NCBI GenBank assembly: GCA_030613785.1
Contig: JAUWLF010000028.1
Coordinates: forward strand, 1 to 42,051
DNA length: 42,051 nt
Direction: 5' to 3'
Source of the DNA: Chloroflexota bacterium
Lineage (GTDB): Bacteria > Chloroflexota > Anaerolineae > UBA7937 > B3-Chlor
A model generated the notes under the pieces. It ran no database searches and was not told where the DNA came from. It worked only from the letters and a program-made list of their open reading frames with translations. Of the stretch, positions 3,245-15,155 are shown one piece after another. A program made the translations under genes and the position numbers. Every line of letters begins with the position of its first letter. The first letter of the stretch is position 1.

Positions 3245-4087
3245 TCACGTCTGGCGCATCAGCGCCACTTTCTCCGCACATCCCTCGAAGAAGTATCCAG
3301 AGCCCCCTTCTCCCACAAGTCTCACCATCTCGTCTCCGTCATTGATGGTGATACCGCCGAGCACAGTGGCTCCCCGGGCGAACAAGGGGTCAGGGTACAT
3401 GCTGGCCGTGGGCCCAGCCACGATCACCTCGCGGGCGGAAGTGCAAAGGCCCAACAGATGGTCCAGCGAGCGGTGGACGATGGCCGACCCGGAGATGACG
3501 ACTACATCCGCCTGCGACAGGACCTCTGGGGCCTCTTCTGCCGGCCTGTAGAAAGGCATCTCGTCGGCCTTGAGTGCCTGAGGGTTCTTCTCCAGCACCC
3601 ACAAGCGCGCCACCTGTCCTTTGAGTTTTTTGATGAAAGGCACGAAGGCCCCCACCAGGGCAACCTCGTCATCCGGACCAATGTGCGCCACATCCAGGGC
3701 GTCAGCGCCCTTGAGGACACGATAACCATCCAAATTGTGCTCCTCCAGCGCCAGAGCGGAGAGTGCATTGAGGGTGGCTATGCCCAGGGATACCTTCAGT
3801 GGACTGTCCGTCAACGCATAGCCCAGGAGTTCCCATGCGCTCTCGCCGGCCAATCTGCCAGCAGCCGGCATGCGGCCGGCGGAACGGGGACAGCACACCG
3901 CCTCCGGAATCTCACGCACAGGCGTGAACGCGACGCCGGTGTGGCCGGTCTCCAGCTTCACAGCAGTGTAGAAGACTCCGAGCACCGCCTTATCCGCCTT
4001 CAAGTCCCGCCTGCCAAGTCTCGCTTCCACCGCCTCGATCAGTTCCTCAATAAGGCCTGTACCATGTTCATCGTTCATCTCGCTCAC
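3245..4087 (-). CDS. DUF4213/DUF364 putative heavy-metal chelation protein
   Basis: A 280-residue cytoplasmic protein. Residues about 10-110 match the DUF4213 N-terminal domain (KAVLGVFYTAVKL, TGHTGVAFTPV). Residues about 120-275 match the Rossmann-like DUF364 domain (VALVGAFVPFIKKLKG, ADVVVISGSAIVHRSLD, VAGPTASMYPDPLFARG, GGITIND). Family members are annotated as putative heavy-metal chelating and often sit near molybdenum, tungsten or metal-transport genes; biochemical proof is scarce. It lies between the YgbA-like gene (94 bp upstream) and the flavodiiron gene (66 bp downstream) on the same strand. A regulatory or metal-handling role is inference only. Confidence 0.85.
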   Translation of the reverse strand: MSEMNDEHGTGLIEELIEAVEARLGRRDLKADKAVLGVFYTAVKLETGHTGVAFTPVREIPEAVCCPRSAGRMPAAGRLAGESAWELLGYALTDSPLKVSLGIATLNALSALALEEHNLDGYRVLKGADALDVAHIGPDDEVALVGAFVPFIKKLKGQVARLWVLEKNPQALKADEMPFYRPAEEAPEVLSQADVVVISGSAIVHRSLDHLLGLCTSAREVIVAGPTASMYPDPLFARGATVLGGITINDGDEMVRLVGEGGSGYFFEGCAEKVALMRQT

Positions 4088-8548: not shown

Positions 8549-10108
8549 TCAGTCCTCTATGATCACGTATCTGTTTATGAGTTCTTCTGCTACTGGTGCC
8601 ACTTCCAGCCAGAAGCGCTTGTTCTCGGGATCCCCGGGGGCGAAGAGATGGTCGTACTTGACCCGGTCATCTCCTCGCGGCCCGCGCTCAGCGGCGCGGA
8701 TCGCAAACTCATGTAACTGGCGCGCACTGGTTAACTTGGAGGCTAGCGCAATGTAATAGAGGCCGAGCTTTTCCACCGCTCGTATATCTCGCCCAGTGTC
8801 ATTCCCCGCCCGCATGAATTGGCTGAGAACCACCAGGACCCGATCTCCAAAGCTCATCTGGGGAATCACAATCTGGTTCTCTACGGGGATCCGGCTAAGG
8901 AGATCGCTCCCCTTGGGACGGGATGCGAGCCGCTGCTTCATCCCGTCCAGGCTGAATCCAGAGCTGCCCGCCAGGACGAACACGACCCGCCCAGTTCCTT
9001 CGACAGCCGAGTCTAGATAAGGCAAGAGCACCTCGTAGGGCCATGTCTCATCAGGCTTGGCATCTATCTCGTCGACCAAAGCGAGGGATGGTCTTGTGTT
9101 CTGAGCCAATTCGGAAAGCCCGGAACGATACTCCTGCTCGCTGAGTTTGGCGAGGTTGAGTTCAACATAGCGACAGGTTCTTGAGAGCGATTCAGCAATC
9201 TGCTGTGCGAAATAGGTCTTACCGCTGCCAGGTGCCGCCCAGATAAGGTAGTTCTCCCTTCTGTGGCTCTGCTCTTCAATCCCAGCTACAATTCTCTGCC
9301 GCGCGTCCTTCAATGCGTTCAGCACGGTTTCCTCATATCGTGTGTACTTGCCGACGACTTGATACCGTGACAACTTGACCACGTCCAGATCAGCGATAAA
9401 GGGATACTGCCAGAGGGGGCTAGCCTTTCCTACCTCCTTCAGAGCAGCGTGGTACTCGGTGAGGTAGTCCTCCGCCTTTTCGAGGCAATCCGGGTCAAGA
9501 CGATTTCTAAACAGGCGACTACTGAAGACCTTAGCCCAATCTGCCACCAACATGACATAGTCTTCCGCCGCGCGATGATAGAGTGACCATCTGTTGACAT
9601 GCTCTTCCGACCGGAAGAGATTCATGCGGCTTCAATTGAACGCGGCAGAGCCTTCCCTCCAATACGCAAAGGGGGAGATCATGTAGCCGACGGCCGTCGG
9701 CGGATCTACTTCCAAGATCTTGTCATCCTTCATGCGGATGAAGATCGGCTGCCCACAATCCAGGCAATGGGTCTGAATGCCGACCTCTTTGCCAGGGAGA
9801 AGCCAGCGCACGGCCAGCGCCTCCATGCCTCACAGAGCGTACCACTTCTGCTGGCCATCCACCGACACCAGATGGTGAGTGGGGATATTCGAAAAAGGCC
9901 CCCACACCTCTATGTAGTCCGTGTCATGGCTCAACCAGCAGGTGGCGGCAGGCGCTGCTTCGGCCGCCTCTCGCTGCAGCTCCCTGGCCTCGTCGGGCCG
10001 CAACCCCATAATCTGAGCCAGCTCCGTGTAGTGCGGTGCACGTCCTGTCTGTACAAAGTGCTCCAGAATGGTGGTGTAGGCGCGCTGCACCAACTTCGCT
10101 TCGGTCAT
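8549..10108 (-). CDS. Predicted selenoprotein: MerB-like domain with two Sec, fused to AAA+ ATPase
   Basis: One frame of 519 residues interrupted only by UGA at 9830-9832 (codon 93) and 9632-9634 (codon 159). Residues 1-225 match alkylmercury lyase: winged-helix start TEAKLVQRAYTTI, then FSNIPTHHLVSVDG, WYAL-U-GMEALAV aligning with MerB YAWCALD (Cys96), CLDCGQPI, DPPTAVGYMI, and FN-U-SRMNLFRSEEHV aligning with the MerB Cys159 region. MerB Asp99 is Glu here. From about 250 an AAA+ domain follows: APGSGKT (Walker A, about 293-298), LALVDEID (Walker B), VVFVLAGSSG. ATG 10108 has GGAAGG upstream; the apparent internal starts at 9826 and 9625 have no good one. Known MerB cleaves carbon-mercury bonds using Cys96/Asp99/Cys159. 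The fusion, and selenocysteine at both cysteines, are inferences from the sequence. Substrate is uncertain. Confidence 0.82.
9598..9626 (-). promoter_or_regulatory. SECIS hairpin for second UGA of the MerB-like gene
   Basis: In the RNA, CUCUUCC-GGUC-GGAAGAG forms a perfect 7-bp stem with a four-base loop. The flanking CAUG...CAUG adds 4 bp across an AAU bulge. The loop begins 19 nt after the UGA at 9634-9632 and starts with GG. This matches the published bacterial SECIS description: a short hairpin inside the coding region, loop about 16-37 nt from UGA, with G among the first two loop bases. Confidence 0.82.
9796..9824 (-). promoter_or_regulatory. Possible SECIS hairpin for first UGA of the MerB-like gene
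   Basis: After the UGA at 9832-9830, a lower stem GGAG/CUCC and an upper stem GGCC/GGCU (one G-U pair) can form around the loop GUGCGCU, which begins 18 nt after UGA and starts with G. An alternative stem GCGC/GCGC gives a loop starting 13 nt after UGA. The structure is weaker than the one for the second UGA. Confidence 0.5.
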
Positions 10109-10284
10109 GTCAAGCCTTCCTTTCACTAGTGCTGGATAGCCAGACTGCGCAACTCGTAGGCTGCGCCGAGGACCCACGCACGATATCCAAGGATAGTTTG
10201 AGTCCAGCTGCCTTTGCATGGGACCGCAACGTCAAAGTGCGGCATGGGCATGAGGCGCGATGAAGCTCACCGCTACTTCTCAGC

Positions 10285-12229: not shown

Positions 12230-12922
12230 TTATGGTGGCCCCACGAAGTGGTATCCCACGCCAGGCTCGGTGAGGATGTACTCGGGGTTGCTGGGATCTG
12301 GCTCGATTTTGCGCCGCAGGCGGCGCACGTACGCCCACACGTACTCTGTCTCGTCACCGTACTCGGGACCCCAAACCGCCTGCAAGAGAGCCCGATGAGT
12401 GAGCACGCGCCCGGCATTGATCGCGAGCTGCGCCAACAGCTCGTACTCCGTAGGGGTTAGTCGCACCTCGCGGTCTTGCACCGTCACGAGCCGCGCGGCG
12501 AAATCGATCTTCAGCTCCCCCGCGGTCACCGGAGGACGCAACGTCACCCCGGTCCGGGCGCTGCGACGCAGCGCGGCCCGCACCCGGGCCAACATCTCCT
12601 CCACCCCAAAGGGCTTCGTCAGGTAATCGTCTGCTCCCAGGTCCAAGGCGCTCACGACGTCTTTTTCCTGCCCTCGCGCGCTAAGCATGATGATCGGTAC
12701 GTCTGACCGCTGGCGGATGGCCTGGCACACTTCAAAGCCATCCGGGCCTGGCATCATGATGTCCAGGATGATCAGGTCCACCACCGATTCGTCAAACACC
12801 TTGAGCGCCGTCCGACCGTCGGCAGCGGTCAGCACGTCGTAGCCCCGCGCGCGTAGGTTGGCGCCAACGTATTTCACGGTCTCCGGCTCGTCATCTACTA
12901 CCAAGACTCTCGGCTTTTTCAT
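12230..12922 (-). CDS. OmpR/PhoB-family response regulator
   Basis: A 230-residue response regulator. The receiver domain (2-118) has the acidic pair D10/D11 in VLVVDDEP, the phosphoacceptor D54 in LIILDIMMPG, and the lysine in DYLTKPFG. The DNA-binding winged helix (about 130-228) shows LTPTEYELLAQLAINAGRVLTHRALLQAVWG and YVRRLRRKIEPDP, typical of the KdpE/PhoB group. The ATG at 12922 (MKKPRVLVVDD) has GGAG upstream; the open frame extends further upstream but only as antisense of the kinase region. It starts 10 bp after the kinase stop, so the pair is one operon. The target promoters are not visible. Confidence 0.93.
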   Translation of the reverse strand: MKKPRVLVVDDEPETVKYVGANLRARGYDVLTAADGRTALKVFDESVVDLIILDIMMPGPDGFEVCQAIRQRSDVPIIMLSARGQEKDVVSALDLGADDYLTKPFGVEEMLARVRAALRRSARTGVTLRPPVTAGELKIDFAARLVTVQDREVRLTPTEYELLAQLAINAGRVLTHRALLQAVWGPEYGDETEYVWAYVRRLRRKIEPDPSNPEYILTEPGVGYHFVGPP

Positions 12923-12932
12923 CGCTCCACAC

Positions 12933-15155
12933 TCACTCGGGGCTGTCCACCCCATCCACCGGCAGGCTGAAATAGAAACGCGAACCCACACCCGGCGTGC
13001 TCTCGACCCAGATGCGGCCGCCGTGGGCTTCGACGATGCCCTTGCAGATGGCCAACCCCAGCCCGGTGCCTGCGACCCGGACTCCCTCACCGTCTGCGCG
13101 ATAGAACCGTTCAAAGATGCGCTCCAGGTGCTCCGCGTCAATGCCGATGCCCTCGTCGACCACGGAAAAGAGTACCTGGTCGCCTTGGCGCTCAACTCCA
13201 ACTGTGATCGGCGTGCCGCGACTGGAGTACTTCACAGCGTTCTCTATCAGGTTAATCAGTACGACTTCGATCTCACGGCCGTCCACAAATAAGGTCGGCA
13301 GGTCAGGCACCACGCGAAGACGCACCTGCCGGTCGGCGGCCAGGTTGCGCCGCCACTGTAACGCCCCTTTCGCCAGGTCATGGGCCTGGTGCCAATCTTT
13401 TTCCATCGGCAGTGCGGCGGCCTCTAGGCGGGACAACTGCAGGATCTTCTCCACCAAGTTGGCGAGCCGATCGGTCTCTCGGCTGATGCTCTCCAAGAAA
13501 TCGCGCTGCGTGGGCGCGTCCCACTCCACGTCGGTCTGAAGGAGGGTCGTGGCGAAGCCTTTGATGTGATGAAGCGGCGTGCGCAGCTCGTGCGAGACCA
13601 TGGAGATGAATTCGTCTTTCAGTCGCTCGACCTCTTTGCGCTCCGTCAAGTCGTGCACGATGTGCATCACCCCCGCTAGGCGGCCAGTGGCATCTGTGAT
13701 GCGCCCGTAACTGATCTCAATCGAGACCTCTTTGCCGGACACCGTCCTGATGCATCCTTCAATTGTCCCGCTCTCGGCGTCCGGGTGCCGGAAGGGGCAA
13801 AGAACGTCGCAGATGGAGGCTCCATCAATGGTATGCACCTCCAACAGGTAGCGGCAGGTCTCCCCGAGCAACTCCTCCCGGCGCCGCCCGGTCAGCCGTT
13901 CCAGTGCCGAGTTCACCATCACGACGCCCCGCCGCGAGTCGCTGACCCAGATGGCGTCCGGAGAGGCCTCGATGGCCGTTATAGCTTTGCTCTGCTCCTC
14001 GGCAACTCTGCCGTACGACTCCTGCAACTGCCGGGCCATGCGGTTGAAGGCCTGGCTCAGTTTTCCAATCTCGTCCGCACCCGTTGTGTGGACACGCGCG
14101 CCCAGGTCGCCTCCCGCAATCGCCTGCGCTTTGACCGTCAACTCCTGGAGGGGACGAGCCATCCGAGCCCTCACGAGCATCGCCACTCCTATCGCCAAGA
14201 TCATGCCGAGGAGCAGACTCACTATAACCGCCTGGACGGCCTCCTGGTGTAGTCCCCAGAAGAGCTGGTTAGGCAAACCCACGCTCAGGGTGCCCACCAC
14301 CTGGCCACGCCCGTCGCGGATTGGATCTATTGCCATCAGGAACGGCACGCCCTGGATCCTCAAGGTGCCACGGTAGGGAGTACCGGCTTCCACCTGCGCC
14401 ATGACGTCCTCAGGCAGTAGGTCGCCCAGGGCTGAACTCCCGCTCGGTTCTTTCAAAGAAGTGGCGACGATCATTCTGCGATGGCTGATGAAGACAATCG
14501 GCCCATGCAGTTCCTGGCCGACTGTCGTGTGCTCGAGATGGCCGTGCAGCTTCTCCCGTAGCGTGTCGGGCACATAAGAGTCGCCGTCCAGCAGGTCGCC
14601 GGCGACGATGAGGCCGCAGACCGAGCCGTCGCACAGGATGGGGCTGACCACGACCACTGCAAGCCCGCCGCCGGAGGAGGGAGTGGCCCAGTACCCCGTG
14701 GGCAGGAGATCGGGTATGAGGATCTCGCTCGAAAGAAGGGCCTCTCGGCGCTCAACCACAGGGGCGATCAGATCGTTGAGGAGAGGAAGGTCATCTGGCT
14801 GCTCCGAGTCGAGCCCAGCCACCACTCGACCATCCGGATCGGCCACGAGCCACAGATCTACGTAGGGGTAGAAGTCCTTCCAGGCACTCATCTCCCGGCG
14901 CAAGCCAGCAGCGTCACGCAGCCGGATAAGGTCTTGCAGAGAGGTTTCGGCCGCGGCCTGGAGCATCCCGAGGCGTATCTGCTGACCCCGGTTCCAGTAT
15001 TCGACCCACGCCGTTTGCAGGCTGTGCTCGAGGGTCTCCTGCGCGCTGCGTGCCATCGCCCGATCGATTAGGTGGGTAGTCAAAACGCCCAATCCGATGA
15101 TCGGCCCTAAGATCACCAGCAGAAGGAGGAGGGTGAACTTCTGTGTCAGCCTCAT
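12933..15155 (-). CDS. Membrane sensor histidine kinase (CACHE-like, HAMP, PAS, HisKA, HATPase)
   Basis: A 740-residue inner-membrane kinase. One membrane helix lies at about 9-30 (FTLLLLLVILGPIIGLGVL). It is followed by an extracytoplasmic double-CACHE-like sensor of about 280 residues (YPYVDLWLVADPDGRVVAGL, GTLRIQGVPFLMAIDPI). A second helix (AVIVSLLLGMILAIGVAML), HAMP, then a PAS domain with the cysteine pair ICDVLCP come next. HisKA has the phosphorylated H522 in MVSHELRTPLHH, and HATPase shows NLIENAVKYSS, DEGIGI and GTGLGLAI. The periplasmic sensor suggests a small organic ligand. CRP-box promoter 2 lies about 350 bp upstream, so it may be the promoter of this operon. Confidence 0.93.
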   Translation of the reverse strand: MRLTQKFTLLLLLVILGPIIGLGVLTTHLIDRAMARSAQETLEHSLQTAWVEYWNRGQQIRLGMLQAAAETSLQDLIRLRDAAGLRREMSAWKDFYPYVDLWLVADPDGRVVAGLDSEQPDDLPLLNDLIAPVVERREALLSSEILIPDLLPTGYWATPSSGGGLAVVVVSPILCDGSVCGLIVAGDLLDGDSYVPDTLREKLHGHLEHTTVGQELHGPIVFISHRRMIVATSLKEPSGSSALGDLLPEDVMAQVEAGTPYRGTLRIQGVPFLMAIDPIRDGRGQVVGTLSVGLPNQLFWGLHQEAVQAVIVSLLLGMILAIGVAMLVRARMARPLQELTVKAQAIAGGDLGARVHTTGADEIGKLSQAFNRMARQLQESYGRVAEEQSKAITAIEASPDAIWVSDSRRGVVMVNSALERLTGRRREELLGETCRYLLEVHTIDGASICDVLCPFRHPDAESGTIEGCIRTVSGKEVSIEISYGRITDATGRLAGVMHIVHDLTERKEVERLKDEFISMVSHELRTPLHHIKGFATTLLQTDVEWDAPTQRDFLESISRETDRLANLVEKILQLSRLEAAALPMEKDWHQAHDLAKGALQWRRNLAADRQVRLRVVPDLPTLFVDGREIEVVLINLIENAVKYSSRGTPITVGVERQGDQVLFSVVDEGIGIDAEHLERIFERFYRADGEGVRVAGTGLGLAICKGIVEAHGGRIWVESTPGVGSRFYFSLPVDGVDSPE

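Follow-up and report, generated by a model that had tools for sequence, protein, structure and literature searches.

What does a bacterial gene encode when in-frame UGA codons stand at the two positions where its enzyme family holds mercury? The question is raised by a minus-strand frame on contig JAUWLF010000028.1 of a Chloroflexota bacterium (assembly GCA_030613785.1), of which we analyzed a stretch of 42,051 nucleotides, hereafter the window. The frame starts at ATG 10108 and, 519 codons on, ends with a TGA at 8551-8549; its internal stops are TGA only, at codons 93 (9832-9830) and 159 (9634-9632). A preliminary description of the window, made from its letters, had proposed a MerB-like double selenoprotein; retranslation agreed with the frame it gave and with the two peptides it quoted, WYAL-U-GMEALAV and FN-U-SRMNLFRSEEHV. 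Based on the comparisons described here, we propose that the frame very probably encodes one protein, a MerB fold joined to an AAA+ ATPase, in which both UGAs would be read as selenocysteine (Sec) to give a likely lyase, with two selenolates, that acts on methylmercury or a related organometal.

The two UGAs stand at the mercury ligands of MerB

MerB is the known methylmercury-breaking enzyme. With the UGAs entered as Cys (C for U), a Pfam search of the fusion protein returned PF03243 (MerB) over residues 72-190, a match that spans both UGAs (E 2.9e-20; 72.9 bits, cut-off 27), and in a six-frame search the window gene scored 58.5 bits, also above the gathering cut-off of 27. The MerB half was folded and searched separately, as the match list for the whole protein was filled by the AAA+ domain, and the MerB fold likewise spans both UGAs. 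In an alignment to solved MerB sequences U93 falls on Cys96 and U159 on Cys159, the two mercury cysteines, in agreement with the original assignment; the UGAs are 66 residues apart, against 63 in MerB (63 from residue numbers). Because the UGAs stand exactly at the two cysteines with which MerB grips mercury, both codons very likely specify selenocysteine. The C-terminal half, missed in the first reading of the window, has a PF00004 (AAA ATPase) match at residues 288-388 (E 4.1e-07, above cut-off), Walker A and B motifs and an AAA+ fold. Within its sequence AAPGSGKT, which we take to be the Walker A motif, A291, P293, G294, G296 and K297 are invariant among 45 sequences.

A scan of genome contigs for relatives of the fusion gave 56 loci. 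The MerB part was covered in nine of these (L027-L035, 61-66% identity), which come from metagenome-assembled genomes (MAGs) assigned to Chloroflexota or Actinomycetota; all nine have UGA at both codons and no further internal stop, which upholds the earlier argument that two UGAs are unlikely to have landed here by chance. The remaining 47 loci match the AAA+ part. Among 100 relatives' genomes, the window's own included, the full fusion was found in the window's genome only, and four others held shorter MerB relatives. None of 61 pattern matches in viral contigs was a relative of the fusion, plasmids yielded a single record (annotated merB, 28% identity over 32% of the query), and a search of phage DNA gave no match.

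Protein databases store such MerB-AAA+ genes as broken pieces. We counted the best 120 listed matches per query and classed the ends of the pieces by a motif test. With the N-terminal piece as query, 113 of these proteins stop just before codon 93, six carry Cys at codon 93 and all stop just before codon 159, and one is in neither class. With the whole protein as query, 100 begin at MNxF just past codon 159 and 18 begin further inside; of the other two, P0121 is a different fusion, of Pfam hydrolase domains with PF00004, and P0003, which carries Cys at codon 159, begins just past codon 93, with a UGA presumably directly ahead of it. Such listings of the pieces as separate proteins are the evidence in favor of reading the frame as three distinct short genes, as a pseudogene or as the result of sequencing errors, an explanation to which we give practically no weight. 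The split-gene form is rejected because the MerB domain, as fold and as PF03243 match, crosses both UGAs, and sequencing error is rejected because the same two UGAs recur in nine of nine relatives from different MAGs, which also rules out a pseudogene; sequencing error could in addition not explain why so many of the best listed N-terminal pieces end just before codon 93. Moreover, the relatives have only Cys or UGA at these sites, and the strongest synonymous constraint lies just past the UGAs, as described below.

Cysteine and UGA alternate across the MerB family of the phylum

PF03243 was searched in 400 genomes of the phylum Chloroflexota, the window's genome included. The search gave 72 matches in 59 genomes. 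Counted by hand, 17 of the matches contain one internal TGA, eight contain two TGAs, one a TAG, one a TAA and 45 no stop; an in-frame UGA is thus present in 25 of 72. We then aligned 61 rows, made up of 48 of the 72 matches, locus L006, three Cys/UGA rows of the 100-genome search and L027-L035; the 24 matches omitted were 22 without stops and those with TAG and TAA. The two site columns read Cys/Cys in 24 rows, Cys/UGA in 20 and UGA/UGA in 17, with no other residue. The stretch examined for stops began 40 columns ahead of site 1 and ended about 15 columns past site 2; it contains 54 in frame, every one of them a TGA at one of the two sites. One genome, G440, has all three types as paralogues (Cys/Cys L106, Cys/UGA L124 and UGA/UGA L114). 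The Cys/UGA rows (for example L003, L109 and L121) share with the fusion the UGA at the Cys159 position but differ from it in having Cys at the Cys96 position, and the frames examined show no AAA+ domain.

A tree was built without the two site columns and rooted at its midpoint only. In this tree one clade (100/99) unites 14 UGA/UGA rows with the Cys/UGA row L130, and nested within it the ten AAA-fused proteins make up a clade of their own (100/99). The stand-alone proteins L114 and L116-L118 branch outside the fused clade; they belong to the same larger clade and have UGA at both sites as in the fusion, and they end approximately where the AAA+ unit would begin. Three further rows with UGA at both sites (L115, L119 and L120) form a separate, second and distant lineage; with its own site-1 stem but the loop CGUGC, this lineage suggests that the double-Sec state arose more than once. 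At minimum, the tree requires two changes at site 1 and three at site 2. The simplest reading of this history would start from Cys/Cys, gain Sec first at site 2 and then at site 1 as well, and end with the ATPase fusion; because the rooting is by midpoint only, the direction of this series is presumed. The series of Cys/Cys, Cys/Sec and Sec/Sec forms, the AAA+ fusion and the already known MerB-like family with a single Sec (SaoL, below) had not been foreseen in the first reading of the window.

A hairpin follows each UGA

The preliminary description had pointed to a bacterial-type hairpin after the second UGA. Its loop, GGUC, does begin 19 nt past the UGA as claimed, but its folding energy is not significant in the single sequence (z of -1.16 and -1.59). 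The first UGA, for which no hairpin had been reported, is also followed by one, with z of 0.09 and 0.01. Because these single-sequence energies are not significant, which itself counts against the presence of insertion elements, we took the evidence for the hairpins from comparison.

Across a codon alignment of the ten fusion genes, synonymous sites vary least just past the UGAs: of 506 14-codon windows, the 25 with the least variation start at residues 88-97 or 151-166, with ratios of 0.40-0.73 against 0.95 gene-wide. When 499 windows of the gene were folded by consensus, the 15 with the best energies lay after codons 90-96 and 156-163, and amino-acid conservation also contributes to these energies. 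At site 2, GGUC is found at the place of the loop in 36 of 37 UGA rows (19 of the 20 Cys/UGA rows) versus one of 24 Cys rows, and the six inner pairs are formed in 98.2% of cases in the UGA rows versus 60.4% in the Cys rows. The closing pair over the 37 UGA rows is CG in 32, UA in three, AU in one and GU in one, and the five doubly changed cells of this stem were reached by none of 500 shuffles. GGUC is the loop of the Escherichia coli fdhF element as well. At site 1 the stem is paired in 95.0% of 140 cells (14 rows); L115, L119 and L120 have a different stem there, with the loop CGUGC 26 nt past the UGA. Together, these comparisons indicate that a hairpin downstream of each UGA has probably been conserved as RNA, at site 1 through conservation of the stem, with covariation not above shuffles. 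The single UGA row in which GGUC is absent from its usual place is L128, a Cys/UGA MerB nearer to canonical MerB (113.3 bits to NF009710) that has a Cys after the UGA.

The genome encodes the selenocysteine machinery

The genome bin that contains the window has a tRNA-Sec (selC) with a UCA anticodon (74.7 bits, above cut-off; ARAGORN concurs), selA (575.6 bits), selB (309.5 bits, or 342.1 with a second piece) and selD (355.9 bits), each protein above its family cut-off. ARAGORN calls a second tRNA-Sec match, which barely passes the cut-off, a tRNA-Ser. The genome's Sec genes, together with relatives that have Cys or UGA only, thus support the predicted double selenoprotein. Two of the three outcomes that the preliminary description had named as refuting it, relatives with neither Cys nor UGA at these codons and a genome lacking Sec machinery, were looked for and not found; the third, Cys codons on re-sequencing, is answered indirectly by the recurrence of the UGAs in nine of nine relatives and by the ends of the database pieces. 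In G440 a UGA/UGA gene and selA are on the same contig, and selA was found on contig C1 both in G486, the genome of L032, and in G489, the genome of L035. The bin's selD (L024) contains a single in-frame TGA close to the start (KAAGUAAKRG) and is likely to be a selenoprotein itself.

These genes bear on whether the UGAs might be decoded as something other than Sec, through a Cys-tRNA that has a UCA anticodon or through an altered genetic code. The aligned residue in relatives is indeed Cys, and the tRNA scan covered the bin in part. We nevertheless consider such decoding very improbable, as the bin has a UCA tRNA-Sec together with selA, selB and selD, the site-2 hairpin is retained where the rows have UGA but not where they have Cys, the fusion gene itself terminates with TGA, and a TGA is also found within selD.

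Several observations weigh against selenocysteine at both sites. The double changes at site 2 are all at one pair, and 159 of 500 shuffles reach one such pair; one of them, the GU pair, is in the loopless L128. Covariation at site 1 is not clearly above shuffles, and when it is scored on just the ten fusion rows the observed value is reached by 50 of 500 shuffles. In minimum-energy folds of 48 nt the site-1 hairpin is absent from three of ten fusion rows and the site-2 hairpin from six of 37 UGA rows (L002, L005, L032, L099, L124 and L128), while L003 and L119 form the site-2 hairpin with a wider loop. The Sec genes of the bin are on contigs other than that of the window, and the bin, although 94.99% complete, is 6.63% contaminated. 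Finally, selA is present in 32 of 32 genomes with a UGA-type MerB versus 18 of 20 with the Cys type only; because it is nearly as common in Cys-only genomes, selA is needed but does not discriminate, and its presence was dropped as a discriminating test.

The fusion is distinct from canonical MerB and from SaoL

A 2021 survey of mer genes describes Cys96, Asp99 and Cys159 as essential and strictly conserved in MerB (PMC8261052, as excerpted). At these positions the fusion has UGA, Glu and UGA, and it further differs from MerB proteins of known structure (PF03243; PDB 3f0o and 3f2f, and MerB2 5c17) in its AAA+ ATPase and in having no mer genes among its scanned neighbors. Its scores to the NCBIfam MerB models are 39.8 against a cut-off of 200 (NF033555) and 39 against 193 (NF009710). 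Two reviews, in the portions available, have one entry for a MerB-like selenoprotein (PMC9312934, PMC13188914), and this protein, SaoL, has a CU motif with one Sec according to the second of them, from 2026. The SaoL model (NF040728) gave the best NCBIfam score of the fusion, 46.3 bits, which is far below the cut-off of 140, and none of six MerB-like relatives tested was above it. SaoL resembles the fusion as a MerB-like protein with selenocysteine but has one Sec instead of two, a model of 159 positions and no AAA+ unit. Membership in canonical MerB or SaoL was rejected on these scores, and by sequence the fusion is best classed as a member of PF03243 that is neither. Among the literature matches listed, none pointed to a double-Sec MerB or to a MerB-AAA+ fusion, which may nevertheless have been described before; the deep-Sep paper (PMC12013277), searched by term, mentions neither MerB nor mercury.

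A predicted double-selenolate organometal lyase

Activity of the fusion as an organometal lyase is likely, and organomercury would be the organometal that it most likely cleaves. Mercuric reductase (merA) is encoded in the same bin, on contig C91 (511.3 bits, above cut-off). With merA in the bin but, among the 20 window open reading frames (ORFs) scanned, no mer genes, and with no neighbor widely shared by the fusion loci, organometal cleavage is a predicted activity. In the mechanism that we propose, SelB would dock at each hairpin and Sec would be inserted at codons 93 and 159 by the SelA, SelB, SelC and SelD of the genome. Sec93 and Sec159 would then take the substrate metal as a bis-selenolate, and Glu96, in place of Asp99, would deliver the proton that releases the hydrocarbon. 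Selenolates bind Hg(II) more tightly than thiolates. Hg(II) is taken from MerB by added thiols or by MerA (PMC4525700, as excerpted), and a bis-selenolate site would therefore be expected to hold Hg(II) harder. We speculate that the fused AAA+ unit might spend ATP on opening the site and handing Hg(II) over to thiols or MerA, although such ATP-driven product release is in our view unlikely. Equally doubtful is the bolder form of this idea, in which the fusion would be the first ATP-powered organometal lyase, its motor being needed to strip Hg(II) from a tight bis-selenolate site, and the end point of the Cys/Cys, Cys/Sec and Sec/Sec series.

The AAA+ unit itself admits a different role. Two of the loci that match the AAA+ part, L055 and L078, do so from query residue 129, with upstream sequence that is not MerB-like. 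Read upstream by eye, 37 of the 47 AAA+-only loci have N-termini other than MerB, often alpha/beta-hydrolase-like and some TPR-like or receiver-like. The module is widespread. The double selenoprotein might thus be a sensor or binding module, in which capture of an organometal or Hg(II) by the MerB domain is signaled onward by the AAA+ unit. This proposal, which we regard as credible but rather improbable, draws on the promiscuity of the AAA+ module, including its pairing with hydrolase domains in P0121, on the lack of mer genes in the 20 scanned window ORFs and on the two-component system upstream in the window. It is opposed by the retained catalytic set (the two metal-ligand positions, Cys115 and an acidic residue where MerB has Asp99), by the existence of stand-alone UGA/UGA and Cys/UGA forms free of the ATPase, and by the MerA encoded in the same bin.

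A double-Sec lyase might alternatively act mainly on another organometal, such as compounds of tin, lead or arsenic, as has been proposed for the Sec-assisted organometallic system. The fact that SaoL gave the best, if sub-threshold, NCBIfam score points in this direction, as does the absence of mer genes from the scanned window ORFs; the relatives tested, none of which reached the SaoL cut-off, and the above-threshold MerA of the bin point away from it, and we find this substrate range improbable.

A lyase for organomercury, the reading that we prefer, also has evidence against it. The replacement of Asp99 by Glu96 is one such point. No mer genes were found by Pfam among the 20 window ORFs scanned, and when ORFs of at least 90 aa were compared the commonest neighbor was a histidine kinase ORF, present in three of the ten fusion loci. 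UGA/UGA relatives without the AAA+ unit exist (L114 and L116-L118), so a double-Sec site does not depend on the ATPase. The idea of a mer operon or conserved neighborhood around the fusion was rejected, as the ORFs scanned and the ten loci compared showed neither mer genes nor common neighbors.

If the proposed reading is right, gene calling that takes UGA as a stop would overlook or break up a considerable fraction of the potential methylmercury degraders, because 25 of the 72 MerB matches in the 400 genomes carry an in-frame UGA; a strict Cys96/Asp99/Cys159 rule would likewise miss genes of the UGA type. Natural Cys/Cys, Cys/Sec and Sec/Sec members would offer a direct test of the effect of selenium on Hg-C cleavage and product release, and the AAA+ fusion poses the question of whether metal can be handed off from a lyase at the expense of ATP.

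Features of the locus and neighboring genes

The features of the fusion gene are collected in the table.

Table. Features of the MerB-AAA+ fusion gene (positions in the window)
Feature	Position	Strand	Basis
MerB-AAA+ fusion coding frame, two internal UGAs	8549..10108	-	translation; 9/9 full-length relatives co-linear
Likely ribosome-binding site AAGGAAGG, just 5' of ATG 10108	10115..10122	-	letters read; function inferred
N-terminal helical region, residues 1-70, aligns with MerB N-terminal domain	9899..10108	-	
MerB (alkylmercury lyase) domain, residues 72-190	9539..9895	-	PF03243 match
UGA codon 93, MerB Cys96 position, predicted selenocysteine 1	9830..9832	-	translation, alignment
Glu96 at MerB Asp99 position	9821..9823	-	alignment
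Hairpin resembling a selenocysteine insertion sequence (SECIS) after UGA 93, loop CGUGC 17 nt past UGA	9796..9824	-	14-row comparison
Cys115 at MerB Cys117 position	9764..9766	-	alignment
UGA codon 159, MerB Cys159 position, predicted selenocysteine 2	9632..9634	-	translation, alignment
SECIS-like hairpin after UGA 159, stem CUCUUCC/GGAAGAG, loop GGUC	9602..9619	-	37-row comparison
AAA+ ATPase domain, residues 237-519	8552..9400	-	PF00004 + AAA+ fold
Motif AAPGSGKT, residues 291-298	9215..9238	-	sequence; conservation over 45 sequences

As to an operon with the other Sao selenoproteins of the Sec-assisted organometallic system, Pfam found no ABC transporter or thioredoxin-like protein in the 20 window ORFs, a scan that did not extend to the Sao NCBIfam models or to frames with UGA, and no mer genes were found by Pfam in six ORFs beside two stand-alone UGA/UGA relatives. 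A search for anti-phage defense gave weak AAA matches only. The AAA+ module of L036-L082 (for example L036, L039 and L043) lies behind alpha/beta-hydrolase-like and other N-termini in bacterial and archaeal MAGs. Upstream of the fusion, genes for a response regulator and a Cache/PAS histidine kinase (Pfam) occupy window positions 12230-15155 on the minus strand, and ORFs related to these two-component genes are near the fusion in L035 (both) and L034 (kinase ORF only). About 4.5 kb downstream of the fusion, on the same (minus) strand at window positions 3245-4087, is a gene for a DUF364/DUF4213 protein, for which Pfam gives putative heavy-metal chelation. On contig C91 of the bin, a small glutaredoxin-like frame with UGA in a UxxC motif (YSQPGUMFCARVKEFL; L131, 3178-3414, minus strand) lies upstream of merA on the same strand, and this frame beside the mercuric reductase likely encodes a second selenoprotein.
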